Shown: positions 29,508-42,339, numbered from the stretch's first letter. The stretch is DNA of 45,044 bases from an uncultured Oscillospiraceae bacterium (GCA_904395905.1 CAJFNZ010000022.1:1-45044), one strand, 5' to 3'. Notes: generated by a model from the letters alone, not told the origin. Numbers and translations: made by a program.

Positions 29508-30644
29508 TTACAGCCCCAGGGGCTCCACCCAGGCGGCCACGTCCTGCTCCGCGGCGCCGCTCGGGAACCGTTGGCCCTCCTGCCAGTCGCCGGTGCCGGC
29601 CAGCGCCGCCAGACGCTGCCCGCTCTCGCCCAGGCCGGAGCTGGAGGAGGTGCAGAAGGGTATGACCGTCTTACCCGTAAAATCGTTCCCTTCCACGAAG
29701 CCCTCCACCGGCCAGGCGGCGTCGTACCACCAGATGGGATAGCCCAAGAACACCACGTCGTAGGCCTCCCAGTCCTCCGGTGTGTATGCGGCGAGCTCGG
29801 TGTCCCGGGCCTCGGGGTGCTCGTACTCGTAGACCACCCGGCTGCCTGCGTCGTTCCAGTCCAGATCTTCGGCCGTGTAGGGGGCGGCAGGGGTAATCTC
29901 AAACACATCGCCGCCGGTGGCCTCCGCAATGGCATTTGCCACCCGCTCCGTGTTGCCGGTCGCAGAGAAGTAGGCCGCCAGGACGCGGCCGCCCTCCGCC
30001 GGGGCCTCCGGCTGCGCGGGCGTTTCCGGGGCCAGATAGTTCCGCAGAATCGTGGCAACCTGGGCGCGGGTGGCGCTGTTCCCGGGCAGGAACCGATTGC
30101 CCGACACGCCGGTGACAATCCCGTTTGCCCGGGCCCACTCCACCGCCGGAAGGGCATAGGCGGAGATGTCCGCCGCATCGGCAAAGTCCTCCCCGGCCTC
30201 CGCCGCCGGGCTGCCGGCGTACCGCCAGAGGAGGGCGGCAATCTGTTCCCGGGTCACCGGGTCGTCGGGTCCGAAGCGCTCGCCGGAATAGCCGCTGACC
30301 ACGCCGGTCAGCCGGGCCCAGTAGACCCCGTCGGCATACCAGGCGTCCCCGGGCACATCGGCGTAGGGATAGCCCAGGTTCTTGTTTTCCAGAGACGGCG
30401 CGCCGGCCAGGCGGTACAGCGTCGTCACAAGCATCCCGCGGGTCATCGTCCCCTCGGGGTCAAACGCGGTGTCCGAGGTGCCGCCCATCAGGCCGTTGTC
30501 CCGGACGTATGCCACCGCATCGGCGTACCAGGCGTCCGCCGCCACGTCGGAGAAGCCCGTATCCGCTGCCGCGGCCGTCACACCCAGGCTGAGCGTCACG
30601 GCCAGGGCCGCCAGAGCAGCCCCCATTCGTTTCCAAATCCGCAT
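29508..30644 (-). CDS. Exported SLH-domain protein with a C-terminal flavodoxin domain
   Basis: Predicted cell-wall-bound flavodoxin, 378 residues. A signal peptide (MRIWKRMGAALAALAVTLSLGVTAAAA) is followed by three S-layer homology repeats (FSDVAADAWYADAVAYV near 31-75, YADVPGDAWYADGVYWA near 95-140, FADAADISAYALPAVEWA near 150-195). These normally anchor proteins to pyruvylated wall polymer. From about residue 222 the flavodoxin fold runs AAYFSATGNTERVANAIAE, VFLGYPIWWYDAAWPV and VIPFCTSSSSGLGESG. The start at 30644 follows GAAGGAGGG. It is the last gene of the operon beginning with the truncated alcohol dehydrogenase. Flavodoxins are normally cytoplasmic, so an exported one suggests extracellular electron transfer; its partners are unknown. 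Confidence 0.88.
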   Translation of the reverse strand: MRIWKRMGAALAALAVTLSLGVTAAAADTGFSDVAADAWYADAVAYVRDNGLMGGTSDTAFDPEGTMTRGMLVTTLYRLAGAPSLENKNLGYPYADVPGDAWYADGVYWARLTGVVSGYSGERFGPDDPVTREQIAALLWRYAGSPAAEAGEDFADAADISAYALPAVEWARANGIVTGVSGNRFLPGNSATRAQVATILRNYLAPETPAQPEAPAEGGRVLAAYFSATGNTERVANAIAEATGGDVFEITPAAPYTAEDLDWNDAGSRVVYEYEHPEARDTELAAYTPEDWEAYDVVFLGYPIWWYDAAWPVEGFVEGNDFTGKTVIPFCTSSSSGLGESGQRLAALAGTGDWQEGQRFPSGAAEQDVAAWVEPLGL

Positions 30645-30657
30645 GGTTATCCCTCCT

Positions 30658-30987
30658 TCACACATTCTCCCGGCCGTAGACCTCCTTGGCCATCCGCAGC
30701 GCCGCCCAGGCCTTGGGCCAGCCTGCGTAAAAGGCCAGCTGCGTCAGGGCTTCCGCCATCTCCACGGCGGTGACGCCGTTGGCCTTGGCCCGCTCGATGT
30801 GATGCAGCAAGGACGTGTCCAGGATGCCGCTGGCCATCAGGGCGGAGACGGTGATGAGGCTCCGGTCCCGGGGCGAGAGCCGGTCCTCCCGGGCCCAGAC
30901 CTCGCCGAACAGCACGTCGTCGTTGAGCTCGGCAAACTTGGGGGCGAATTCGTTCATGGCATCTCTGCCGGCTGTTACAGGTTTCAT
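30658..30987 (-). CDS. Carboxymuconolactone decarboxylase family protein
   Basis: Small helical protein of the CMD/AhpD superfamily, 109 residues. RLSPRDRSLITVSALMASGILDTSLLHHIERAKANGVTAVEMAEALTQLAFYAGWPKAWAAL is the core. The CxxC/CxxH redox cysteines of AhpD are absent, so it is of the gamma-CMD type and not an alkylhydroperoxidase. It lies 13 nt upstream of the exported flavodoxin and 28 nt downstream of an aldo/keto reductase, a grouping common in gut Clostridia. The reaction is unknown. Confidence 0.87.
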   Translation of the reverse strand: MKPVTAGRDAMNEFAPKFAELNDDVLFGEVWAREDRLSPRDRSLITVSALMASGILDTSLLHHIERAKANGVTAVEMAEALTQLAFYAGWPKAWAALRMAKEVYGRENV

Positions 30988-31015
30988 GACATAGCCACCT
31001 TTCCGTTCCACGCGT

Positions 31016-31861
31016 TTACTTCTGATCCTCCACCGGCGGAACCATCTCCGCGTACTTTTTCAGCAGCTCGGGGGTGCTGTGGTAATACCGCTTCTGCCGG
31101 TCCATGGCGGCGATTTTCGCCATCTCCCCATCGGTGAGGGAGAAGTCGAACAGGTCCAAATTGGCCCTGATGTGCTCCGGGTTCTTGGAGCCGGGAATCA
31201 CGATGTCGCCCGCCTGAATGTGCCAGCGGAGAATCACCTGGGCATTGCTCTTGCCGTACTTCTTGGCCAGCTCGGTGAACAGCGGCTCCTCCCGCAGCGC
31301 CCTGTCCCCGTGGCCCAGGGGGTACCAGGCCTGCATCACCATGCCCTCCCCGCTGAGGAACTTCTTCAGCTCCTTCTCCTGGGAGTAAGGGTGGACCTCC
31401 GTCTGGAGAACGGCGGGCTTCACCGTGCAGACGTCCAGGATTTCCCAGATCTGGTCCTGGGTGAAGTTGGACAGGCCGATGGCCCAAACCTTGCCCGCCC
31501 GGCAGGCCTCCTCCATCCGCCGGTAGCCGGCCATGTAGTTGCCGGCGGGCTGGTGCAGCAGCAGCAAATCGATGTAATCGGTGTCCAGCCGCGCCAGGGT
31601 CTTGTCCACGGCGTCGGCCTGCTCATAAAAGCTGGGCCACAGCTTGGTCTCCAGGAAGATGGCCTCCCTGGGCACGCCGGACTTCCGGATGGCGCGGCCC
31701 ACGGCCTTTTCGTTCAGATAGGCGTTGGCAGTGTCGATGAGGCAGCCGCCGCACGCGAGGGCGCCGAGGACCGAGGCTTCCGCCTCGTCGGGGCTCAGCA
31801 GGAAGGTACCGATGCCCACCATGGGCATTTTCACGCCGTTTTGCAACGTTGCAAATTCCAT
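31016..31861 (-). CDS. Aldo/keto reductase
   Basis: NADPH-dependent carbonyl reductase, 281 residues, single TIM barrel. The catalytic tetrad is visible: D and Y in LIDTANAYLNEKAVG, K in ETKLWP and H in LLLLHQP. The NADPH-binding end reads ILRWHIQAGDIVIPGSKNPEHIRANLDLFDF. The chosen ATG (MEFATLQNGVKMPMVGIGTF) lies 9 nt after AAAGG; the first in-frame ATG touches that site. It is intact and sits in the operon controlled by LysR box A. Confidence 0.92.
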   Translation of the reverse strand: MEFATLQNGVKMPMVGIGTFLLSPDEAEASVLGALACGGCLIDTANAYLNEKAVGRAIRKSGVPREAIFLETKLWPSFYEQADAVDKTLARLDTDYIDLLLLHQPAGNYMAGYRRMEEACRAGKVWAIGLSNFTQDQIWEILDVCTVKPAVLQTEVHPYSQEKELKKFLSGEGMVMQAWYPLGHGDRALREEPLFTELAKKYGKSNAQVILRWHIQAGDIVIPGSKNPEHIRANLDLFDFSLTDGEMAKIAAMDRQKRYYHSTPELLKKYAEMVPPVEDQK

Positions 31862-31882
31862 TTCCAGCATCCTTTCCGAGTT

Positions 31883-32386
31883 TCAAATGCAGTCGTTATA
31901 GATAATCGGCTTAATCAGGCTCCGGTCATGGTGCAAAAACAACTCCATGGCCGCCGGGATCCTGGCCAGGTTCATGTCTGCGTCCCGGATGTAATAGGTC
32001 TCCACAAAGGAGCCGCCCCGGTCCGGGTAGTCCACCCCGGCGTACAGATTGTCCTGGTGCCGCTTGGCCCGGCCGTCCTGGGCCTCCAGGCTCCGCCACA
32101 CCGGCATCACCGAACAGACGATGACCCGGTCGCCCACCCGGAAATCCCGGACCTCCGGCCCCACCTCGACAATCTCGCCGCACATTTCGTGGCCCACCGC
32201 TTTGCCCAGAAGATAGGGCAGGGATGCGCACCCGGTGGCGCACAGATGGGCGTCGCTGGTACAGGGGGACCAGATGAGCGGCCGAATCAGCGCCCCGGTG
32301 GGGCAGATCTCCTCCGGCAGAGGGCACCGGTCGCGGACGGCCAGGGTATTTTGCCCGGTGATGACAACCCCTTTCATGTACTTCAT
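31883..32386 (-). pseudogene. Zinc-dependent alcohol dehydrogenase, only the N-terminal domain
   Basis: N-terminal GroES-like half of a medium-chain dehydrogenase. MKGVVITGQNTLAVRDRCPLP, the zinc-ligand region WSPCTSDAHLCATGC, GHEMCGEIVEVGPEVRDFRVGDRVIV and the proton-shuttle part are present, but the protein ends at 167 residues after NLARIPAAMELFLHHDRSLIK. The Rossmann NAD(P)-binding domain is missing; normal length is about 350. It is the first gene after LysR-box promoter A and 21 nt before the aldo/keto reductase gene. It is unlikely to be an active dehydrogenase. Confidence 0.85.
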
Positions 32387-32456
32387 TCGCAAACAGCTCC
32401 TTTCCAAAATCCGGCCCGGCCGGCGCTCGCCGCCGCGGTCCACGAAGGCCAGTTTG

Positions 32457-32512
32457 ATTGTAGTCCCGGCGCCCTTGCAGGAGAAGTCCCGAAAAGTTTT
32501 GCAGTAGATACC
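32457..32512 (-). promoter_or_regulatory. LysR-type box A and -10 of the truncated ADH operon
   Basis: Minus strand GGTATCTACTGC then AACTTTTCGGGACTTC (box 32512-32483), then 20 nt to TACAAT (32462-32457). There is no good -35; its place is taken by the end of the box (TTCTCC), as expected of an activator-dependent promoter. It is one of four matching sites. The box is seen; LysR binding is inferred. Confidence 0.75.
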
Positions 32513-32525
32513 CTTCGGTTGAAGC

Positions 32526-33356
32526 TCATGCGGAGCCGCCCGCAGACGGCCCGGCAGGCAGATGCCGGAAGGTGGCGCGGTACATACCGAAGGAGACGGG
32601 CAGCATGATAATCTCCACCACCAGCTGTGTCCATATCATACCATAAAGCCCCACCATGTGGTTCATGAAAATCAGCAGCGGCACATTCAGTATGCCCTGG
32701 CGGCAGGCGGTCAGGACGGCGGACTGCACCCCTTTGCCCATGGCCTGGAGCGTGTAGCTGATGAGGAAGTTCACCGCCGTCAGCGGCACCGCCAGGCAGG
32801 CAATGCGCAGAAACTGCGCACCCAGGGCGCTGGTCTCCGCCTCCGGGATGAAGAGATGCAAAATCTGCGGGGCAAACGCAAAGAAGCAGGCCACGAAGCC
32901 GGCGGATAACACCAGGGCGGTTTTCCAGGAGAAGTAGGACACCGACCGCATCCGCCGGTAGTTTCCCGCCGCGAAGTTGTAGCCCACCAGGGGCATAAAG
33001 CCTTGACACAATCCCATCGACACGTTCAGGGGGAACTGGTCGATGCGCTTGACGATGCCGTAGGCCGCCACCGGGATGTCCCCATAGCCGGCGGCCAGAT
33101 GGACCATGGTCATATTGGAGATATTCCCCAGCGTGGTGGCCAAGGCGGAGGCAATTCCCACCGAAAAGATGGGCCGCAGGAACCGGAACGTAATATGCTT
33201 CGGCCGGAAGGAGACGGCGGTCCGCCCCCGCAGCCGCCAGTATGCCGCCGCAAACCATCCAATCGGGGCCGTGTTGGAGAATGCCGTTGCGATGGCCGCC
33301 CCGGGCACCGGCCGCTGCTCAAACAGATACCGCTTTTCGTCCGGAAAGCCGCTCAT
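32526..33356 (-). pseudogene. MATE family efflux protein, N-terminal half lost
   Basis: C-terminal half of a MATE Na+/drug antiporter, 276 residues against about 450. From GAAIATAFSNTAPIGWFAAAYW on, the protein follows the family (RPIFSVGIASALATTLGNISN, FPLNVSMGLCQGFMPLVGYNFAAGNYRRM, NFLISYTLQAMGKGVQSAVLTACRQG, YGMIWTQLVVEIIMLPVSF). The first residues MSGFPDEKRYLFEQRPVP do not. The six N-terminal helices are absent, so transport is unlikely. A RibD-like gene truncated at its 3' end lies 43 nt upstream, suggesting one deletion removed both missing parts. Confidence 0.82.
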
Positions 33357-33398
33357 CGCCCGGCCTCCCGTCCTCCGCGCCGGCCGCGCCCCGCGCCC

Positions 33399-33773
33399 TT
33401 ACCCATTCCGGTCGTGCTTGCCGCGCAGATTGTATTCATGGCAGAACTGTTCCGCATAGTCCGAGCTGAACCACACTTCGCAGATGCCCAGCGGCACCCT
33501 GGGGTCGATGGAAATCAGAAATTGGTCCGTTTCGCACGCCGGCAGATAGTCCGCTCTGGGATAGCGCTCGGCGCTGGGTTCCAGGTCTTCCACGGTCCCG
33601 TAGGACTCCGTCATCGTCTTTGTGCCGTACAGGATTGCGCCGCAGTCGTAAAAATCGCGGGCGGCGGCGTTGGCTCTGCGGGCGGCGTCCGCCTCCGGCA
33701 GCTGATAGAATCGCCCGCTGCACTTGCCGTTGATTGTGGACGTCATCAGGCAGATGACGTACGGTCTGTTCAT
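33399..33773 (-). pseudogene. RibD C-terminal/dihydrofolate reductase-like protein, truncated
   Basis: N-terminal half of a protein of the RibD-C/DHFR-like family, which binds NADPH. RPYVICLMTSTINGKCSGRFYQLPEADAARRANAAARDFYDCGAILYGTKTMTESYG is typical, but the product ends at 124 residues where about 220-250 are expected, finishing in an unrelated tail (NLRGKHDRNG). Together with the MATE remnant it marks a deletion junction around 33330-33400. A ribosome-binding-like GGGTGG precedes the ATG. Confidence 0.75.
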
Positions 33774-33820
33774 GACATTCCCACCCTTTTCGTCGTTGTA
33801 GGGGCATCCCCGCTTTGCAA

Positions 33821-33851
33821 AGAAGGGGCGCAGCGGAACTGCGCCCCTTCT
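33821..33851 (-). terminator. Terminator after the UROD-M20 chimera
   Basis: AGAAGGGGCGCAG pairs with CTGCGCCCCTTCT across a 5-nt loop, 10 nt after the chimera's stop on the minus strand; TTTGC follows. Confidence 0.8.
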
Positions 33852-33860
33852 GCCGATGGG

Positions 33861-34781
33861 TCAGAGGATGTGGGGATGCTCCGGAATATGCTGCGCGTGG
33901 AACGCCTCCCAGCATTTTTTCACAATCTCCGGGTCGGTCAGCGCGTCGTAGCCGGTCTGCGCCAGGATGGCATAGCCGTACAGGCCCGCCCGCATACCGA
34001 TGCCGTTGGAGGAGGCAAAGGTCGTCGTCCAGTGGTGGCCGGCCGTCCCCACCACCTTGCCGAGCCCCCAGATCTGGATGGCCGGGCAGTAGTAGGACAT
34101 ATCCGCACAGTCGGAGGTGGAGCAGTAATCCGTCGGCTCGCCTTTGAAGGGGATAATCTCCGTCGGAATCAGGTGCGCCCGGTCCGGAATCGGCTCGCCG
34201 GGGTGCAGATGCGCATAGAGCGCCTCCGCCTTCTGGTAGTCCTCGTCCGTGTACGTGAGCGGCGGCACCTTCTGGGCGGCTTCGTTGACGTAGTAGGACA
34301 GCGGGATGTTCAGGTAGAAATTAGGGACTACGGACTCAATCTTGTACGCCATTTTCGTGTCCGTCATCATGGCCGCGCCCTGCGCAACGCGGATGCCGCG
34401 CTGGACCGCGTCGTAGCAGACGTCGTAGTCCTTGTCCGCCCGGAACATATATTTGGCCGCCGCGTAGCAGATGTCCACGGCGCTGAGGTTCTCGTCGTTG
34501 GTGACGCTCTGGCCGCCGACTGCGTCGCTGAGGAGCAGCGGCATCCGCAGGCCGATGTTGCGGCAGGCGTCCACCGGATACGTCCGGAAGAAGCGGGTGA
34601 TACATTCCTCCATCATCTCGTAGTTCCGGGACGCCACCGCCGGGGTGTAGCCGGCGTCGTAGAACTGCCACGTCTGGAGCGCCACTTCATACGGCGTCCG
34701 TTCCGGTTTCCGGAACGCGTGGGCATCCCGGTACAGTTTACAGCGATATTGCAGCATCTCTGCTGGCGTTTTTCGTTCCAT
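33861..34781 (-). pseudogene. In-frame chimera: UROD-like N terminus joined to an M20 (AbgB-like) C terminus
   Basis: Residues 1 to about 95 (TPAEMLQYRCKLYRDAHAFRKPERTPYEV, MMEECITRFFRTYPVDACRNIG) look like the start of uroporphyrinogen-decarboxylase-related methyltransferases found in corrinoid operons. From about residue 105 the sequence follows the M20 amidohydrolase/AbgB family: MFRADKDYDVCYDAVQRGIRVAQGAAMMTDT (lid domain), TSDCADMSYYCPAIQIWGLGKVVGTAGHHWTTTFASSNGIGM and a final LTDPEIVKKCWEAF. The peptidase metal ligands of the N-terminal half are missing, and so is the UROD barrel. The open frame has its own AAGGAGG and could be translated, but neither activity is expected. A deletion fusion is the likely origin. 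Confidence 0.72.
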
Positions 34782-34802
34782 CGCCTTGGATGACCTCCTT
34801 CG

Positions 34803-35282
34803 TCATTGCTCGTTTCCCGTGCGCGTGCGGCTTCCGGCCTGAGGCCCCGCCGCTTCCTTCTGGTCCGGCGCGATTTCCGTGCAGAGCATATTCCGCGCGC
34901 TGTTGTTGATGTTGTTGAGCCACTTGGTGAACGACAGCGTGATGGTCAGCACGACGGTCAGGACCGCCACATTGGGGGTGAAGTACGTATAGCCGGTCCA
35001 AATCAGCAGGAAGTTCAGGACCACCAGAATCATATTGGCCTTCCGGTAGCGCCCCATCTTGCCGGGCTTGAAGGTCTGAATCACAAAGCCCGTGATGGTG
35101 GCCAGCACCAGGGCGCCGATGCTGCTGATGCTGGTGATGACGCCCACGTTTCCCAGCGGCAGCTTCATGATGTCCGTCAGAATATAGGTCAGATAGTAGC
35201 CGTGGAAGGTTCCGGCCATGGTAAACAGCATGAAGCCGATGCCAAAGAACCATTTGATTGTTTTGGTTAATGGCTTTTTCAA
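34803..35282 (-). pseudogene. MFS transporter, C-terminal two thirds lost
   Basis: Start of a major-facilitator transporter, 159 residues against about 420-450. MKKPLTKTIKWFFGIGFMLFTMAGTFHGYYLTYILTDIMKLPLGNVGVITSISSIGALVLATITGFVIQ gives the first helices, then LNFLLIWTGYTYF and LTVVLTITLSFTKWLNNINNSARNMLCTEIAPDQ. A short charged tail (GSRTRTGNEQ) replaces the rest. It would have taken up the methylated substrate of the neighbouring corrinoid system, judging by position, but cannot transport in this form. Confidence 0.8.
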
Positions 35283-35330
35283 ATGAATTCCTCCTCTTCA
35301 GGTCGTTCCACCTCTCCCGGCGGCCGGGCG

Positions 35331-35974
35331 TCACAGGGCCGCCGCCCACTCCTTGCAGACCTGCACCGTGGTCTGCGGGTTGTGCGCCCACGCATCCGCG
35401 CCGGTCAGCTTGCAGTACCCTTCGCTGACGGGGGCGCCGCCGATGATGATTTTCACCTGGTCCCGGAGGCCGGCATCCCGGAAGGCATCCACCGTTTTCT
35501 TCATGGAATCGATGGCCAGCGTCAGCACGCCGCTCAGGCCGATGATGTGGACATCGTTCTCCCGGGCCTTCTCCACAATGGTTTCCGGCGCCACGTCAAT
35601 GCCGAGGTCCAGCACGTCGAACCCGGCCGCTTCCAGCATGGAGCGCACGATGTTCTTGCCGATGTCGTGCAAATCGTCCTTGACCGTGCAGAGAATCATC
35701 TTGGTTTTTTCCCGCCGCCGCTCTCGCCGGAGACGAGGCTGTCTTTCAGAATCTCGACGGCCTCGGTCATCAGTTCGCCGGCAAAAATCAAATCGCCGAC
35801 GAAGTACTCGCCGCTCTCAAACCGGTCGCCGATGATGTCCATGCCCTTCTGGCAGGCGTCCAGCGCCTTCTGCGCCTCTGCGCCGCCCTCGTCCATCACC
35901 TGCTTGAGAAGGCCCAGGACGACCTCCTCGTCCAGGTCTCCCATGGCGGCTGCCAGCTTTTCAAAGTCAATCAT
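35331..35974 (-). pseudogene. Corrinoid (B12-binding) protein of a methyltransferase system, frameshifted
   Basis: Methyl carrier of the MtaC/MtbC/MtgC type. Frame 1 (35974-35696) gives the helical cap MIDFEKLAAAMGDLDEEVVLGLLKQVMDEG...DRFESGEYFVGDLIFAGELMTEAVEILK and then stops after GGGKKPR. Frame 2 (to 35331) gives the cobalamin domain MILCTVKDDLHDIGKNIVRSMLEAAGFDVLDLG, where DxHDxG supplies the cobalt-ligating histidine, plus IIGLSGVLTLAIDSMK and IIIGGAPVSEGYCKLTGADAWA. The switch falls at GGGAAAAAACC near 35703; a -1 slip (or a one-base insertion) restores one 214-residue protein. The ATG follows AAGGAGG. It lies directly downstream of MeTr. Confidence 0.85.
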
Positions 35975-36000
35975 TCCGGTAGTCCTCCTTTGTACGGATG

Positions 36001-36810
36001 TTACGGTTTTTTCGCGCCGACTTTGCCGGCGCGGTACGCACGGTTGTACTTGCGGCCGCCCTTGTCCCGCATACACAGGGCCTCACAGGCGTAAATGGTG
36101 CTCCGCAGGTCCACGCTGCACGGGTCCACGATGGCGGAATCCAGCCCGGCCTGGATGGCATAGGCCATGCAGCCGCAGTTGACGTACTTCCTGGCCGGCA
36201 TATCGAAGCTGATGTTGGAGATGGCCCCGGTCACTTTGACCTCCGGCGCATAGGCGTGGATCTCCGCAATCGCGCGCGCAAAGTCCGCCATGGAGGAGGG
36301 CATCGTCGCCAGCGCCATGACGCAGGGGTCGATGTGCAGGTGGGGGAGCTTCACGCCGTAGCGGTCCGCTTTGTCGATTATCCGCTTGGCAATATCGACC
36401 TTTTTCCCGACGTCCGCCGGGATCCCGTCCTGGTCGCAGGTCAGGCCCACCACGTTCCAGTCCGTCCCGGCAATCACCGGGAAAATGGTCTCGCACTTGT
36501 CCCCTTCCTCGTTCACCGAGTTCACCATGCCCGGGCGCGCCACGCGGCCTTCCTCCAGGATCCTGCGCAGCAGGCGGGCGTTGGGACTGTCGATGCAGAC
36601 GGGCGTCTGGGTCACGGCCTGGATCTGTTCGAGCAACCATACCATGGCCTCATACTCCACATCGGTGGCCGTGCTGGGCGCGCAGTCCAGGAAGTCGGCG
36701 CCCGCTTCCGCCTGGGCGAGCGCGCGCTGCCGAATCGCCTCCGCGTCCCGGTTGGCGATGGCCTCCCGGACGGCCGGGATGGCGCCGTTGATTTTCTCCC
36801 CGATAATCAT
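36001..36810 (-). CDS. Methyltetrahydrofolate:corrinoid methyltransferase (MeTr/AcsE-like)
   Basis: TIM-barrel enzyme that exchanges a methyl group between a corrinoid protein and tetrahydrofolate, 269 residues. Family features are MIIGEKINGAIPAVREAI, GADFLDCAPST (pterin aspartate region), TPVCIDSPNARLLRRIL, VNSVNEEGDKCETIFPVI, HIDPCVMALATM and GAISNISFDMPARKYVNCGCMAYAIQAGLDSAIVDP. The chosen ATG at 36810 has AAGGAGG 12 nt upstream. It is the first gene behind LysR-box promoter B and precedes the corrinoid protein by 26 nt, so the pair would feed methyl groups from a demethylated substrate into one-carbon metabolism. The substrate-specific methyltransferase is not intact here. Confidence 0.9.
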   Translation of the reverse strand: MIIGEKINGAIPAVREAIANRDAEAIRQRALAQAEAGADFLDCAPSTATDVEYEAMVWLLEQIQAVTQTPVCIDSPNARLLRRILEEGRVARPGMVNSVNEEGDKCETIFPVIAGTDWNVVGLTCDQDGIPADVGKKVDIAKRIIDKADRYGVKLPHLHIDPCVMALATMPSSMADFARAIAEIHAYAPEVKVTGAISNISFDMPARKYVNCGCMAYAIQAGLDSAIVDPCSVDLRSTIYACEALCMRDKGGRKYNRAYRAGKVGAKKP

Positions 36811-36867
36811 CAAGTGGGGGTTCCTCCTTCCAACGGATATTTGATACAATCGAACGCTTACGATTTT

Positions 36868-36922
36868 AGTTTACTCCCCCGGGGGAGAAACGGAAGTCTC
36901 GATAAGTTGCCGGGCGTAAACC
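36868..36922 (-). promoter_or_regulatory. LysR-type box B and -10 of the MeTr/corrinoid operon
   Basis: Minus strand GGTTTACGCCCG then AACTTATCGAGACTTC (box 36922-36893), 19 nt, TAAACT (36873-36868). Overlapping it upstream is an extra inverted repeat (CGGGCG...AAACC/GGTTT...CGCCCG, 36911-36937). It is the most divergent of the four boxes in its left half. Confidence 0.68.
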
Positions 36923-36963
36923 TGAGGTTTCCGCCCGAAGGTTGTACCTTTTTGCCAAAGCAG

Positions 36964-37004
36964 AAAAAGCGGCCGCCCCGGAACCAAAATTCCGGAGCGG
37001 CCGC
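36964..37004 (-). terminator. Terminator of the first lysR gene
   Basis: GCGGCCGCTCCGGAA pairs with TTCCGGGGCGGCCGC (one mismatch) and is followed by TTTTT on the minus strand, 11 nt after the stop. Confidence 0.85.
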
Positions 37005-37014
37005 GCCGCCGTTT

Positions 37015-37920
37015 CTATCCGGCTTTGTCCGCTTTGGGCCAAGCCTTCTTGATGGTTTGCAGAAACCGATAGACCATGGGGGACGTCTCTGCGGCGTACC
37101 GCAGGCCGAACGGGACCGTGTAGGTCCAGTCCACCGGCAGGAGCTTGATGCCGGGATGGTAGTCCCGCCACAGGGGCACCGCAAACAGGATGTCTTCGCT
37201 GTTCGCGCACTGGTTGAAGACATCCTCGTTGATATAGGAGAAATCCTTCAGACGGATCCCCGGGTACCGCGCCTGGATGTCGTTGCGGAATTGGTCGATG
37301 AAGCTGTTGAAGCCGTGGCAGAAGCAGAGCAGCCGGTATCCGGACAGGTCCTGGACGGTCAGCCTGGATTTCTGCGCCAGGGGATGGCGCAGGGATACGG
37401 CGCACTGTACCGGCTCATACGTCAGATGCAGCGTGTTGAGGCTGCTGACTCGCATGGGGTCATACATCAGCAGCAGGAGGTCGATGTCCCTGCCCAGGCG
37501 GGAGAGGGTCTCCCGGTACAGTTCCGGCCGCATTGCAAAGCTGACCAGCTGATACTGGAGGCGGGGGAGCTCCTGCTGCGCCAGGCGGAGGACCTCCCGC
37601 AGCAGCTTCCGGGAGGTCATAAAGCCGACGCCGATGCACATCACATCCCCCGTCTTCTGCTGCTGGATGGTCCGCAGCCGCTCGAGGGTCTGTCTCGACT
37701 CGGCGATGCACTTCTTGGCCTCCTGATAGAACAGCACGCCGACGTCCGACAGCGTCGTGCCCCGGGACGTCCGGTCCAGCAGCTGCAGGCCGAGCCGCTC
37801 CTCCAGCGCGTTGATCTGCTTGATGACCGCCGTCGTGCTGATGTAGAGCGACTGGCCGGCCTTGGCGAAGCTCCCGCTCTCCACCACCGCCACAAAGGTG
37901 TCCAGCTGTGGATGATACAC
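37015..37920 (-). CDS. LysR family regulator 1
   Basis: LysR-type transcriptional regulator, 301 residues. The N-terminal winged helix is VYHPQLDTFVAVVESGSFAKAGQSLYISTTAVIKQINALEERLGLQLLDRTSRG; the rest is a periplasmic-binding-like effector domain ending in TSPMVYRFLQTIKKAW. The GTG start at 37920 follows AAGGGGG; the track's 521-residue ORF runs back into the upstream flavoprotein gene. It is clearly paralogous to the second LysR (shared VDW-Y-P-GL, FNQC-NSEDIL, YNPQLETF/YHPQLDTF). It lies amid four promoters carrying a common box and is a good candidate activator. Confidence 0.92.
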   Translation of the reverse strand: MYHPQLDTFVAVVESGSFAKAGQSLYISTTAVIKQINALEERLGLQLLDRTSRGTTLSDVGVLFYQEAKKCIAESRQTLERLRTIQQQKTGDVMCIGVGFMTSRKLLREVLRLAQQELPRLQYQLVSFAMRPELYRETLSRLGRDIDLLLLMYDPMRVSSLNTLHLTYEPVQCAVSLRHPLAQKSRLTVQDLSGYRLLCFCHGFNSFIDQFRNDIQARYPGIRLKDFSYINEDVFNQCANSEDILFAVPLWRDYHPGIKLLPVDWTYTVPFGLRYAAETSPMVYRFLQTIKKAWPKADKAG

Positions 37921-37954
37921 GCAATCCCCCCTTTCCCCCGATGCGCGCAGGGTT

Positions 37955-38489
37955 TTACACGGTTTTTCCCGCCTGGTACGCCTGATGCGCGGCCGGGGTC
38001 TCCAGAACCTCGCCCTTCTGATACACGCCGGAGCCGTAAATGCGCGCCCGGACCCGGGCGCCCGGCAGGCAGTCGGTGAACCCCGCCAGCGCCTCCATGG
38101 TGCGCTCCATGGCGCCCTTGCCCGCAGCGGCGGTGGCGATGAAGCAGACCTCCTTGTCCCGGATCTCCGTGTACCGGGGCAGGGTGCGGTCGATGAGGGT
38201 CTTGAGCCGGCCGTCCATGGAGTAGAAGTACACCGGCGTGGCCAGCACCAGCACGTCGGCCTCCACCATCTTGTCCAGGATGGCGGCCATGTCGTCCTTC
38301 TGGACGCACACACCGGTGCCCCGGCAGCCGTAACAGGCCCGGCAGGGGGCAATCCTCTGCTCCAATACGCGGAGCTTCTCCACCCGGTGGCCGGCCTCCT
38401 TCGCGCCCATGGCAAACTGGTCGCACAGCAGGTCCGAATTGCCCCCCCTTGCGGGGGCTGGCAGACAGAATCAATATCTTTTTGGCCAT
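37955..38489 (-). pseudogene. Iron-sulfur flavoprotein/NADPH-dependent FMN reductase, frameshifted at G7
   Basis: Flavodoxin-fold protein with the start MAKKILILSASPRKGG in one frame and NSDLLCDQFAMGAKEAGHRVEKLRVLEQRIAPCRACYGCRGTGVCVQKDDMAAILDKMVEADVLVLATPVYFYSMDGRLKTLIDR in another. The break is a run of seven G (38443-38449 region); six G would give the standard FMN loop SASPRKGGNSDLL. C-x2-C-x2-C-x4-C (CRACYGCRGTGVC) is the iron-sulfur site. Whole-protein length would be about 177 residues. The internal ATG at 38410 gives a fragment without the FMN loop. It could be a sequencing error, a true mutation or a slippage-prone switch. It is downstream of the flavodoxin lipoprotein gene. Confidence 0.82.
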
Positions 38490-38536
38490 TCCATTCCCGT
38501 TCCTTTCCGGCGGCGGGGACGCCGCCGCTCCGTATC

Positions 38537-39265
38537 CTATTGCGCGGACAGCCCCAGGCCGCGCACCCAGTCCGCCACATCGCTCTCGTCGGCGCCGGAG
38601 CGGAACCGCCGGCCCTCCTGCCAGTCGCCGGTGCCGGCCAGCTCCGCCAGCAGCTCGCCGCTGCTGCCCAGGCCGGAGGAAGAGGAGGTGCAGAAGGGGA
38701 TTACCGTCTTGCCGGTAAAGTCGTTGGCCGCCACAAAGGTGCTGACCGGCCAGGCCGCCTCGCCCCACCAGATGGGATAGCCCAGAAACACCGTGTCGTA
38801 GTCCTCCCAGTTGGGGACCTCCGTGGCGGTCAGGGCCACCGTCTGGGCGTCGGGATTGTCGTGCTCATAGACGACCCGGCTGCTTTCGTCCCGCCAGTTC
38901 AGGTCGGCCTCGGTGTAGGGGTCCGAGGGGGTGATGCAGAAGGTGTCGGCGCCGGTGGCCTCCACGATGTAGCCCGCCACGGCCTCGGTGTTCCCGGTGG
39001 CGGAGTAGTACACCACCAGCACGCCGCCGGGTTCCGCCGCGTCCCCCTCGCCGGCGGGCGCGGCGTCCGCCTCCGCGCCGCCCGTGGTCTCCACCCCGGC
39101 GGATTCCGGAACGGCGGCGTCCGCCTCCGGTTCCGCAGCGGTCTGCTCCTGATTCTGACTGTCGCTCTGCCCGTCCGCGGCGCCGTCGCGGCCGCTGCAG
39201 GCGGCCAGGGACAGGAGCATCGCGCCCGCCAGCAGGCAGCTGAATATCCGTTTCCAAGGTTTCAT
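38537..39265 (-). CDS. Flavodoxin lipoprotein
   Basis: Exported, membrane-anchored flavodoxin, 242 residues. The signal peptide MKPWKRIFSCLLAGAMLLSLAAC carries lipobox LAAC, so C23 is lipidated. An acidic, low-complexity linker (about residues 25-78) leads to the flavodoxin domain: VVYYSATGNTEAVAGYIVEATGADTFCITP, VFLGYPIWWGEAAWPVSTFV and VIPFCTSSSSGLGSSGELLAELAGTGDWQEGRRF. The domain is very similar to that of the SLH-anchored protein at 29.5-30.6 kb, so the two are paralogues with different anchors. It follows the truncated aldo/keto reductase by 28 nt in the operon behind LysR-box D. Confidence 0.9.
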   Translation of the reverse strand: MKPWKRIFSCLLAGAMLLSLAACSGRDGAADGQSDSQNQEQTAAEPEADAAVPESAGVETTGGAEADAAPAGEGDAAEPGGVLVVYYSATGNTEAVAGYIVEATGADTFCITPSDPYTEADLNWRDESSRVVYEHDNPDAQTVALTATEVPNWEDYDTVFLGYPIWWGEAAWPVSTFVAANDFTGKTVIPFCTSSSSGLGSSGELLAELAGTGDWQEGRRFRSGADESDVADWVRGLGLSAQ

Positions 39266-39293
39266 AAAAGGTTCCTCCTGTCCGGGCCTCGGT

Positions 39294-39704
39294 TTACTCC
39301 GTTACAGTCTCCTGGATCCAGGCCTCGATGTGGTCGGTCCCCAGCCGCCGGAGCGAGCCCTCCACCGAGGCCCGGATGCTCTCCGGTCTCGCGTCCGGAA
39401 TCAGCGGCTTGTTGACCGCCGTGCTGGTCTCGTCAAAGCGGATGCCGAACTTGGTGGCAGTCTGCACCCGGTTCCGGACCGCCTTCAGCGCCTCGCCCAC
39501 CAGCGTTTCGTTCTCGTGGGGGTCGGCCGCGGTGCCGTAGGTCTCGGCGGTGTCGAACAGCGTATAGCCCAAATCCAGCGCAGCCCGGATGGCCCGGACG
39601 GCTTCGCTCCGCCCGGTGGGCGCCCCGTAGGCATGGCTGAAGCCCATGCACCCCAGGCCCACGGCGGAGACGGACAGGTCTGTGCCCAGAGTCCGTGTTT
39701 TCAT
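39294..39704 (-). pseudogene. Aldo/keto reductase, truncated after about 120 residues
   Basis: N-terminal third of an AKR of the Tas/YakC type: MKTRTLGTDLSVSAVGLGCMGFSHAYGAPTGRSEAVRAIRAALDLGYTLFDTAETYG, ENETLVGEALKAVRNRVQTATKFG, SIRASVEGSLRRLGTDHIE. D and Y of the tetrad (FDTAETYG) and K (ATKFG) are present, but the histidine strand (normally LYYQHR after DHI/DYI) is replaced by AWIQETVTE and a stop at 136 residues. The normal length is about 330. An internal deletion joining to the gene's own last codons is possible. It is the first gene behind promoter D. Confidence 0.82.
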
Positions 39705-39736
39705 GGTTGTGTTTCCTCCGTTTCTGGTCTGCCCCT

Positions 39737-39792
39737 ATGATAGGCGACATTCCCGCCGCGCAGAAGTTCCGATTCGTTTCGCGGTATCTACC
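39737..39792 (-). promoter_or_regulatory. LysR-type box D and -10 of the AKR-flavodoxin lipoprotein operon
   Basis: Minus strand GGTAGATACCGC then AACGAATCGGAACTTC (box 39792-39763), 20 nt, TATCAT (39742-39737). The start codon is 33 nt downstream of the -10. Confidence 0.7.
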
Positions 39793-39823
39793 AAAAGGTT
39801 TTCCCGGGCGCTGCGGTGCGCCG

Positions 39824-40921
39824 TCAGCGCCGCCGGACGGCCGCGGCGGCGTTGGCGCGACGGGGCCGTCCGGCCGCCCCCTCGTCCGCGCACGCGCCCT
39901 CTGCGGGAAAGCCCAGGCCCCGCAGGAACGCCGCGCAGGCGTCGGCGCCGGCCTGCGCCAGTTCCGCCGCCGGCCTGCCGGTGATGCCCCACACCCGTTC
40001 CGCCAGCCGGGCCATCCGCGCCGGCTGTTCCCGGCAGGCAGTGCGGATGGCGGACAGCAGACACACCGCCAGGCAGTCCGTAACGTCCCGCCCGGTCTGT
40101 CCGGCCAGGGCCAGGGCGGCCCGGCGGCAGGCGTGGTCACAGCGCTTGCCCGCCTGGAACACGGCGTTCCCCACCAGGGCGCCGGCCCACATCAGGTCGG
40201 CCCGGCCCTCGTCGGTCTGATACGCCTCGCCCCACAGGACCGACGCCACGTTTTCCATCAGCGCCTCCAGCAGGCTGTCCGTGACGGCGGCGCCCGTCGC
40301 CGGCGGCGCCAGATACAGCTCCACGGCCCGGCTGAAAATCCGGAAGCCGTCGGACAGCATCTGCTGCCGGGACAGCGTCCGGGTATAGGCCGGGTCGAAG
40401 AGCACGAACTGCGGGGAACACTGGGGATAGCTCCGGGCCACCCGGACGCCCTGCCGGACCAGCACCGCCGCGCCGTTGAGCTCGCCGGTGCCCAGCGTGG
40501 TGGGGACACCCCCCACCGGCAGCGGCTGGAAGTCCACCACCCCCGGCTTGGCCCAGAAGTTCTCCCAGAGATCCCCGCGGGTGACGGCCGCCATGGCGAT
40601 GGCCTTGCAGCAGTCCGTCACCGAGCCGCCGCCCACGCCCACAACCAGGTCCACCTGCTGCTCCCGGGCAATCCGGGCGCCCCTTTGGACCGATTCGTAG
40701 TCCGGCCCCGGCAGAACGCCGGAGAGCTCCACGACCTGTTTCCCCGCGGCGGTCAGGCTGCGGAGCACTTCGTCGTAAGCGCCGGTTTCCCGACTGGAGC
40801 GCACGCCGCTGACCAGCAGCGTGTTGGGGCCGTACCGGCGGGCAAACCCGGCCAGGTACTCCCGGACGCAGCCGCCGCCGAATATAATCTTCCCGCTGGG
40901 CTCCAAAAGAAAGTTCTTCAT
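39824..40921 (-). CDS. Iron-containing alcohol dehydrogenase-like protein lacking metal ligands
   Basis: 365-residue member of the iron-ADH/dehydroquinate-synthase-like superfamily. The N-terminal NAD(P) domain is intact: IIFGGGCVREYL, DLVVGVGGGSVTDCCKAIA and GGVPTTLGTGEL. In the helical domain the usual D-A-x-x-H-A-x-E-x-Y reads R194-IFS-R198-AVELY, so the aspartate and first histidine ligands are both arginine. The later H-G ligand is replaced by TD, and only CDHAC keeps a histidine. Metal-dependent alcohol oxidation is therefore doubtful. Possible roles are metal-free reduction, regulation or loss of function. It has its own promoter, box C, and is followed by promoter D. Confidence 0.82.
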   Translation of the reverse strand: MKNFLLEPSGKIIFGGGCVREYLAGFARRYGPNTLLVSGVRSSRETGAYDEVLRSLTAAGKQVVELSGVLPGPDYESVQRGARIAREQQVDLVVGVGGGSVTDCCKAIAMAAVTRGDLWENFWAKPGVVDFQPLPVGGVPTTLGTGELNGAAVLVRQGVRVARSYPQCSPQFVLFDPAYTRTLSRQQMLSDGFRIFSRAVELYLAPPATGAAVTDSLLEALMENVASVLWGEAYQTDEGRADLMWAGALVGNAVFQAGKRCDHACRRAALALAGQTGRDVTDCLAVCLLSAIRTACREQPARMARLAERVWGITGRPAAELAQAGADACAAFLRGLGFPAEGACADEGAAGRPRRANAAAAVRRR

Positions 40922-40971
40922 GGTGTGTCTGCCTCACTCCTTGCAGCGCCGCTCCGCGCCGCGTTTTTTAC

Positions 40972-41027
40972 AGTATAAAAAAAACGAGACTTCCGCAGAA
41001 GTCTCGAAAAGTTACGCAGTATGAACC
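40972..41027 (-). promoter_or_regulatory. LysR-type box C and -10 of the iron-ADH-like gene
   Basis: Minus strand GGTTCATACTGC then AACTTTTCGAGACTTC (box 41027-40998), 20 nt, TATACT (40977-40972). The right half of the box is also the left arm of the terminator of the upstream lysR gene. Confidence 0.75.
40977..41006 (-). terminator. Terminator of the second lysR gene, overlapping promoter C
   Basis: CGAGACTTC-TGCG-GAAGTCTCG followed by eight T on the minus strand, a textbook intrinsic terminator 47 nt after the lysR stop. Confidence 0.85.
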
Positions 41028-41052
41028 TTTCCGTAATGTCCCCGGCGCGGCG

Positions 41053-41946
41053 TCACAGGGCCAGTACAGATTTCACCGCTTGCAGGAAGCGCTCCACCGT
41101 GGGCGAGGGATTGGGCGCGTGCAGCAGGCCGTAGGGGATGGTATAGTCCCAGTCCACCGGGATGGTCTTGAGCAGCGGGTGGACCTGCTGCCAGTTGTCG
41201 ATGGTCATGAGAATATCCTCCGAGTTTTCACACTGGTTGAACACCTGGATGTTGAACATCTCAAAATCCACAATATGGATTTGGGGATGGTCCCGCCACA
41301 GGTCGTCCCGCATCCGGTCCAGATAGTGGTTCCATCCCCGGCGGATGAGCAGGAAGTTTTCCTCGTGGAGATCCTCCACCGAAAGGCGCTCCTTGGCCGC
41401 CAGCGGGTGATAGATGGACACCGCGCAGCGGATGGGCTCGCGGCTGAGTTCCAGCGCGGCGCACTGCCGGGCCTGCAAAAACTTCTGGTCGAAGAGGCCC
41501 GCCACAATATCGATGTTCTGGCCCAGGTTCCGCAGAATCTCCACGGAGTTTTCCGGGGTATTTTCATAGGGAACCATTTGAAACTTGATGTCCGGGCAAT
41601 GCGTTTTGATGCCCGGCCACAGCTCCAGCAGAAACCGCCCCGGCGTCATAGGCGACACGCCGATGCGGATGACCCGGTCTCCCTCTTCCGCGGCGTTTTT
41701 CGCCCGCATCACCGAGTCCTTGCAGTACTGGATGACGTACTGGGCGTCCCGGTACAGCGACTTGCCCGCCTCGGTGAGCTTCAGCCCCCGGGGGCTGCGG
41801 AGGAAGAGTTTCAAATCCAGGTTGGACTCCAGGGAGGTAATCTGCTTCATCACCGCCGGCGGGGTGATGAACAGCTCTTCCGCCGCCTTGTTGAAGCTCC
41901 CTGCATCCGCTACCCGGAGGAACGTCTCTAATTGTGGATTATACAT
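41053..41946 (-). CDS. LysR family regulator 2
   Basis: LysR-type regulator, 297 residues, paralogue of the one at 37-38 kb. The winged helix is MYNPQLETFLRVADAGSFNKAAEELFITPPAVMKQITSLESNLDLKLFLRSPRGLKLTEAG. The effector domain has FNQCENSEDILMTIDNW and ends in IPVDWDYTIPYGLLHAPNPSPTVERFLQAVKSV. The ATG at 41946 follows AAAGGTGG. It precedes promoter C and the iron-ADH-like gene and is the second candidate regulator of the four-box set. Confidence 0.92.
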   Translation of the reverse strand: MYNPQLETFLRVADAGSFNKAAEELFITPPAVMKQITSLESNLDLKLFLRSPRGLKLTEAGKSLYRDAQYVIQYCKDSVMRAKNAAEEGDRVIRIGVSPMTPGRFLLELWPGIKTHCPDIKFQMVPYENTPENSVEILRNLGQNIDIVAGLFDQKFLQARQCAALELSREPIRCAVSIYHPLAAKERLSVEDLHEENFLLIRRGWNHYLDRMRDDLWRDHPQIHIVDFEMFNIQVFNQCENSEDILMTIDNWQQVHPLLKTIPVDWDYTIPYGLLHAPNPSPTVERFLQAVKSVLAL

Positions 41947-42339
41947 GGGTACCACCTTTCCGGGGGGTGTACGATACGTTATCAGGCATATTTTACCGTT
42001 TTCTCAGCCGGAAAGCAAGACAAATCACGGGCAGGGAAATCCCTGCCCGTGAACGGTCACGCGCCATCGTGTTTGCTGCCTGCGGCGGCGCGTCGTCCCG
42101 CGGCCCCAACGCCGTCCCCCTCCGCCGTCAAGAGGCCGGCCTCTCCTGCGCAAACAGCCAGCCCATAATCGCCGGGTCCTCGGCGAACAGGGCCCCTCCC
42201 CCGGGCGGGCGGCGGCCGCCACTTTGCACTTCCCGCCCGGCATCCGCTTGCGCAACCAAACGCAACGCTTTTTGTATGCCGCAGTTGGTGGAACTTCCGG
42301 AAAGCTGCGGGTATAATGGCCGCAGGAGGTGTGAAAAGT
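41947..42339. other. Intergenic region between lysR 2 and the XRE-AbrB regulator
   Basis: It holds a perfect hairpin ACGGGCAGGGA/TCCCTGCCCGT (42027-42050) with a T-rich minus-strand flank, looking like a minus-strand terminator. On the minus strand the frame ending at 42128 closes with LFAEDPAIMGWLFAQERPAS, which could be the tail of a lost gene whose terminator this was; that is speculative. A -10 TATAAT (42312-42317) for the next gene lies at its right end. Confidence 0.45.
42312..42317 (+). promoter_or_regulatory. -10 element of the XRE-AbrB/ABC-2 operon
   Basis: A perfect TATAAT 22 nt before the ATG. No consensus -35 is at the right distance (TTGGTG is 21 nt away). The palindrome CTTCCGGAAAG lies between and could be an operator for the encoded regulator. 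Confidence 0.5.

Follow-up and report, generated by a model that had tools for sequence, protein, structure and literature searches.

We describe a conserved promoter element, and the regulator that probably acts on it, in a 45,044-nucleotide stretch of DNA (the window) from an uncultured Oscillospiraceae bacterium (GCA_904395905.1, CAJFNZ010000022.1:1-45044). Four minus-strand promoters in the window share a box whose recurrence is real and far above chance, and we consider it very probable that these boxes are operator-promoter modules of a LysR-type transcriptional regulator (LTTR) encoded beside one of them, LysR1 (41053-41955, minus strand; HTH_1 PF00126, 4e-21, and LysR_substrate PF03466, 8e-14), the likely activator. 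A first-pass annotation had placed 30-nt boxes on the minus strand at 32483-32512, 36893-36922, 39763-39792 and 40998-41027, with gaps of 20, 19, 20 and 20 nt between ACTTC and the hexamers TACAAT, TAAACT, TATCAT and TATACT, and these sequences, coordinates and distances are correct. The shared box is real, but its extent had been drawn too short: the site is 37 nt long and starts 7 nt further upstream with ACC. Site A (40998-41034; ACGGAAAGGT...GAGACTTC; -10 TATACT at 40972-40977) lies between LysR1 and the gene for an iron-containing alcohol dehydrogenase (Fe-ADH). Site B (39763-39799; ACCTTTTGGT...GGAACTTC; -10 TATCAT at 39737-39742) is located 5' of aldo-keto reductase (AKR) and flavodoxin genes, and site C (36893-36929; AACCTCAGGT...GAGACTTC; -10 TAAACT at 36868-36873) is located 5' of methyltransferase/corrinoid genes and downstream of a second LysR gene, LysR2. 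Site D (32483-32519; ACCGAAGGGT...GGGACTTC; -10 TACAAT at 32457-32462) precedes the genes for a truncated Zn-type alcohol dehydrogenase (Zn-ADH), an AKR, a carboxymuconolactone-decarboxylase-family (CMD) protein and a flavodoxin with S-layer homology domains.

The box is rare in the genome. Searched over the 2.33-Mb assembly, which comprises 201 contigs and is 80% complete, so that further sites may be missed, the gapless pattern GGTNNNNACNGCNNAACNNNTCGNNACTTC matches exactly at four places: sites A, B and D and a site on another contig, C127:3691-3720. The site C box (36893) departs from this pattern at three positions, no other place in the whole assembly matches it with three mismatches or fewer, and the reversed pattern, used as a control, had no match in the assembly. 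When both strands of the window were scored with a matrix trained on 49 sites, all from other genera, positive scores were obtained at exactly the four boxes (49.0, 42.6, 40.0 and 27.6 bits), and 25 dinucleotide shuffles of the window yielded zero positive scores. The matrix is mildly circular in that its training sites were collected with a box-derived pattern; the -10 and several flanking positions lie outside that pattern. The whole genome was also searched with a sequence-only profile (66 positions, derived from the same 49 sites), which returned the four window sites, the C127 site and one weak reverse match on the site A hairpin. Equally good boxes are not scattered at random, as only one further site was found in the assembly, and the first-pass reading of the boxes is not refuted on this count. 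The fifth site (L136:3684-3720, i.e. G000:C127:3684-3720) has a perfect box, no -10 and only a membrane-protein-like open reading frame (ORF) downstream, and it may be a relic or a deletion junction.

The architecture of the site is that of an LTTR promoter. In homologues, the full site reads ACC-N4-GGT-N4-AC-N5-AAC-N5-G-N2-ACTTC, followed by 20 nt and TATAAT; the ACC-N4-GGT left half was absent from the box as first described. Across 69 non-redundant sites, on which all the architecture statistics are based, the consensus is TA-ACC-N4-GGT-W-N3-AC-Y-G-N3-AAC-N-AA-T-C-G-R-R-ACTTC-Y, 20 nt, TATAAT. Conservation extends to positions outside the collection pattern, namely A at position 0 (53/69), AA at positions 26-27 (55/69 and 58/69), the pyrimidine that follows ACTTC (69/69) and the -10. 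Similarity to TATAAT peaks only at 20 nt (a mean of 4.8 of 6 bases compared with 1.3-2.8 at other spacings), which is the best -10 offset in 60 of the 69 sites. If transcription is assumed to start 7 nt after the -10, ACC-N4-GGT sits in a T-N11-A frame centred near -64.5, with T at position -1 in 44 sites, A at position 11 in 40 and both together in 29, and a stretch resembling an activation binding site (ABS), AAC...ACTTC, covers about -48 to -33 and reaches the -35. In LTTR promoters, the recognition binding site (RBS) is a T-N11-A motif around -65 and the ABS lies at -35/-10 (PMC8407307), and the predicted role of ACC-N4-GGT as a LysR recognition site of the T-N11-A type fits this layout. 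The first-pass annotation had reported that a consensus -35 is absent; there is indeed no good -35, but a degenerate one (TTCYnn, separated from the -10 by 17 nt) is present, as TTC followed by T or C occurs in 69/69 sites. Site C is the weakest of the four window sites; its inner bases deviate and its distance to the -10 is 19 nt.

The site is linked to LysR1 well beyond the window. Searching genomes with the LysR1 protein gave 30 loci from Oscillospiraceae, Lachnospiraceae and other Clostridia, and near-perfect copies of the box occur in these loci, mostly directly after the LysR gene. With orthologues taken at about 61% identity or more, and restricting the count to loci that the protein search alone had identified and that extend 250 nt or more downstream, the site adjoins the LysR stop codon in 21 of 27 orthologues (at least 21.7 bits, between -14 and +44; shuffled downstream regions score -9.8 bits at most), and four of the remaining six have a site elsewhere in the locus. 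None of seven LysRs at 36-42% identity carries a site after its stop codon. Further, in a family sample of 201 genomes, a site with at most one mismatch was detected in 5 of 6 genomes with a LysR1 orthologue compared with 2 of 195 without (p 5e-8), and the sixth LysR1-bearing genome, G026, has sites with two mismatches. Among 391 genomes of the same class, 10 have both, 4 only LysR1, 2 only the site and 375 neither (Fisher p 3e-15; p 6e-14 at the genus level; the tests ignore shared ancestry), and one of the site-only genomes carries a LysR fragment, 44% identical, directly beside the site. Six sites surround two LysR1 copies in G497, a near-closed genome, over a span of about 35 kb. In G455, three sites are on contigs other than the LysR contig and precede hydrolase-FeADH-flavodoxin, AKR-AKR-flavin reductase-RibD_C and AKR-flavodoxin genes; these trans sites give independent support for a regulon. 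The proposal that the boxes are LysR sites is thus borne out by their geometry, their adjacency to LysR1 orthologues in many genera and the co-occurrence over 391 genomes. Two LysR paralogues are indeed present in the window, LysR1 and LysR2, which are about 40% identical, and LysR1, rather than both, is likely to be the main binder of the boxes.

The genes that follow the sites form a recurrent set. The first gene after 92 sites encodes an AKR in 24 cases, an alpha/beta-hydrolase (mostly with a lipoprotein-like signal) in 24, an Fe-ADH in 14 and a flavodoxin in 6, with 11 unlabelled, a count that is descriptive and no test because the gene labels were partly built from site-linked genes; in addition, many loci were fetched for containing LysR1. 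Zn-ADH, flavin or FMN reductase, RibD_C reductase, SDR and DUF362 are among the further first genes, and MATE and CMD genes occur inside site-led operons. In the window, Pfam and NCBIfam gene calls agree with the earlier statement that the boxes precede truncated ADH, methyltransferase/corrinoid, AKR-flavodoxin and iron-ADH genes. All of the genes concerned are on the minus strand. Site A is followed by the Fe-ADH gene (39824-40921); among NCBIfam models, its product is closest to PRK15138 (alcohol dehydrogenase, YqhD model), at a score below the cut-off. After site B come a truncated AKR (39294-39704), a Flavodoxin_4 protein with a lipoprotein-like N terminus (38537-39265) and an NADPH-dependent FMN reductase-like ORF (37955-38410). 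Site D is followed by the truncated Zn-ADH, which has ADH_N only (31883-32443), an AKR with DkgA as its best NCBIfam match, below the cut-off (31016-31870), the CMD protein (30658-31011) and the Flavodoxin_4 protein with S-layer homology domains (29508-30665). From these gene classes, with Fe-ADH and AKR closest to YqhD and DkgA, we infer that the regulon would serve to reduce reactive carbonyls or phenolics or to protect the cell from them.

Two side observations concern these genes. Secreted proteins of about 1300 amino acids are encoded after regulon sites at L200:11656-15570 and L203:582-4505, the former being a single chain that unites CMD, Cu_amine_oxidN1, cupin and carboxylesterase domains. 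Further, several regulon genes between 31883 and 39704 of the window are truncated, split or fused compared with their relatives: the AKR after site B has 136 amino acids versus 334 in the sister locus L015, relative to which about 1.7 kb is missing, a MATE protein lacks its N terminus, the Zn-ADH lacks its C terminus, and the B12-binding protein is spread over two ORFs. These broken genes reflect either genuine decay through deletions or chimeras in the assembly.

At site A, the element overlaps a predicted intrinsic terminator of LysR1 (40977-41006, minus strand; CGAGACTTC(TGCG)GAAGTCTCG followed by 8 T; -14.8 kcal/mol, z -4.8). In this predicted hairpin, the right half of the site provides the 5' arm and base-pairs with the spacer, and the -10 begins with the final T of the U-tract. 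The arrangement is found again in many genera. Stems of 8 or more pairs extend without a break through the box in 18 of 23 LysR-adjacent sites, and 3 more have a stem with a single mismatch. About a third of the other 46 sites also have a stem, and a LysR gene or a fragment of one precedes some of these as well; sites B, C and D have kept the box and have no such hairpin. In L036, both arms have changed together (GGGTCTTC/GAAGACCC) at the cost of the ACTTC box, indicating that the hairpin is kept for its own sake. Our impression is that the hairpin is present after a regulator or outsider gene and missing after a regulon gene. The right half of the site would thus double as the 5' arm of a putative terminator where it follows the LysR gene.

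In the mechanism that we propose, a LysR1 tetramer would anchor on ACC-N4-GGT (T-N11-A) near -65 and contact the AAC...ACTTC stretch at about -48 to -33, which runs into the degenerate -35 (TTCY). The inducer of LysR1 would most likely be a reactive carbonyl, a quinone or a phenolic compound, and on sensing it LysR1 would help sigma-A polymerase to open the TATAAT promoter 20 nt downstream. The regulon would comprise genes for carbonyl/flavin redox reactions, esterases and efflux. In modules located after the LysR gene, and in some of the others, the right half would also serve as the 5' arm of the intrinsic terminator of the upstream gene. Binding by LysR1, activation rather than repression, the class of inducer and termination at the hairpin are all predicted from sequence. 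A broader proposal, which we consider doubtful, is that, in a widespread LysR regulon of gut-type Clostridia, a single 37-bp operator combines promoter activation for carbonyl/phenolic detoxification with the terminator stem of the regulator gene, that LysR occupancy and termination could influence each other, and that a corrinoid methyltransferase operon has been recruited in this genus, linking O-demethylation to aldehyde reduction.

Like known LTTR promoters, the present ones are associated with an HTH_1 plus LysR_substrate protein and have a T-N11-A dyad near -64.5, a conserved ABS that abuts the -35, a weak -35 and a good -10. They differ in that the site is long (37 nt), shows little drift across families and has the LysR terminator embedded in it. 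Several points weigh against assigning the boxes to LysR1. LysR1 is co-directional with, and upstream of, its targets, unlike the divergent layout of many LTTR systems, and conservation is stronger on the ABS side than in the RBS, an unusual feature among LTTRs. Four genomes, three of them in one genus, have a LysR1 orthologue and no detected site. The shared ancestry ignored by the Fisher tests counts here too (the co-occurring genomes span at least eight families), as does the way in which gene labels and loci were obtained.

We considered whether another regulator (AraC, MarR or a response regulator) binds the box, LysR1 being a mere cassette neighbour. Many sites do lie inside the LysR1 cluster, and ACTT repeats with 10-bp spacing in the ABS part of some sites would suit other regulators too. 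However, no other regulator recurs beside the sites, the dyad is of the LTTR type and correctly placed, and sites on other contigs are found in LysR1-bearing genomes and almost never in genomes without LysR1, making this explanation improbable. That the element is mainly a terminator hairpin is suggested by the strong hairpin and U-tract over the right half of site A and most LysR-adjacent sites. We reject this, as very little probability attaches to it: the box is conserved without a hairpin at sites B, C and D and in about two thirds of the 46 sites that were not counted among the LysR-adjacent ones, the ACC-N4-GGT left half lies outside the hairpin, and in L036 paired changes preserve the stem and disrupt ACTTC. 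That GC-rich promoter regions resemble one another here by chance has a negligible probability and is refuted by genome-wide uniqueness, the shuffles and recurrence across genera.

More weight has to be given to LysR2 (37015-37926, minus strand), which is possible, rather than probable, as the regulator, in place of LysR1, of site C and perhaps of all four sites, with the methyltransferase operon as its own target. LysR2 lies directly upstream of site C, the site with the deviating inner bases and 19-nt spacer, and its recognition-helix region is within the variation of box-linked LysRs. Its only close orthologue (91%) is in a sister genome, where site C is kept at the same promoter and the LysR2-site C pair is conserved. 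Because sites A, B and D and the sites of most other genomes are present without a close LysR2 orthologue, control of all sites by LysR2 is unlikely; LysR2 may regulate site C, with LysR1 as the likely main binder of the boxes. Site C is followed by a methyltetrahydrofolate:corrinoid methyltransferase gene (36001-36849, minus strand; PRK07535, above the cut-off) and a B12-binding (corrinoid) protein split over two overlapping ORFs (35331-36076, minus strand; stops in a single frame). No substrate methyltransferase was identified with these parts. The ORF at 33861-34781, considered as a UroD-type methyltransferase, was rejected: Pfam gave no match and the PDB no useful one, and the C-terminal two thirds of its product resemble an M20-peptidase ORF. 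This ORF is a chimera: its residues 93-303 share 63% identity with the C-terminal end of an ORF of the M20-peptidase family (L121:1-1173), whereas roughly its first 90 residues have no counterpart in the L121 ORF. Among the genomes compared, the site was not seen before methyltransferase/corrinoid genes outside this genus. The idea of one regulon joining redox and methyl-transfer genes therefore holds for redox, given the genes downstream of the 92 sites, and weakly for methyl transfer, for which there is one divergent site beside LysR2, shared with the sister genome only. A methyl-transfer link confined to this genus is plausible.

PDB matches to LysR1 are weak (best E 3e-11), it reaches the cut-off of no NCBIfam LysR equivalog, and no close characterised LTTR relative was found in these two sources. 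The closest functional parallel is in E. coli, where YqhC, an AraC-family protein, has yqhD and dkgA as its regulon. Both systems have an iron-type ADH and a DkgA-like AKR as targets and a likely role in aldehyde protection. However, the regulator here is of the LysR type, the Fe-ADH and AKR score below the equivalog cut-offs, and flavodoxins, esterases, MATE and CMD proteins are in the set; the present regulon would work like the YqhC regulon and not be a member of it. Similarly, the methyltransferase (PRK07535) and B12-binding protein after site C recall the corrinoid O-demethylase/methyltransferase operons of acetogens, but the corrinoid protein is split in this assembly and, among the genomes compared, the link to the box is found only in this genus.

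No description of this LysR regulon was found in the open-access literature; subscription papers could hold one. Overall, as the four window promoters share the site and the site-regulator pair recurs across Clostridia, we conclude that a regulon of redox, esterase and efflux genes across many Clostridia is real and apparently undescribed. For anaerobes with few known transcription-factor sites, it would supply a defined operator and a probable regulator, together with targets that form a coherent set, namely aldehyde/ketone reductases, secreted flavodoxins, esterases and MATE efflux. The overlap of terminator and operator is a compact arrangement that can be tested easily. The motif can be scanned for in any Clostridia genome and predicts poorly annotated redox and esterase genes that would act together, with dietary, plant or drug electrophiles as plausible substrates.

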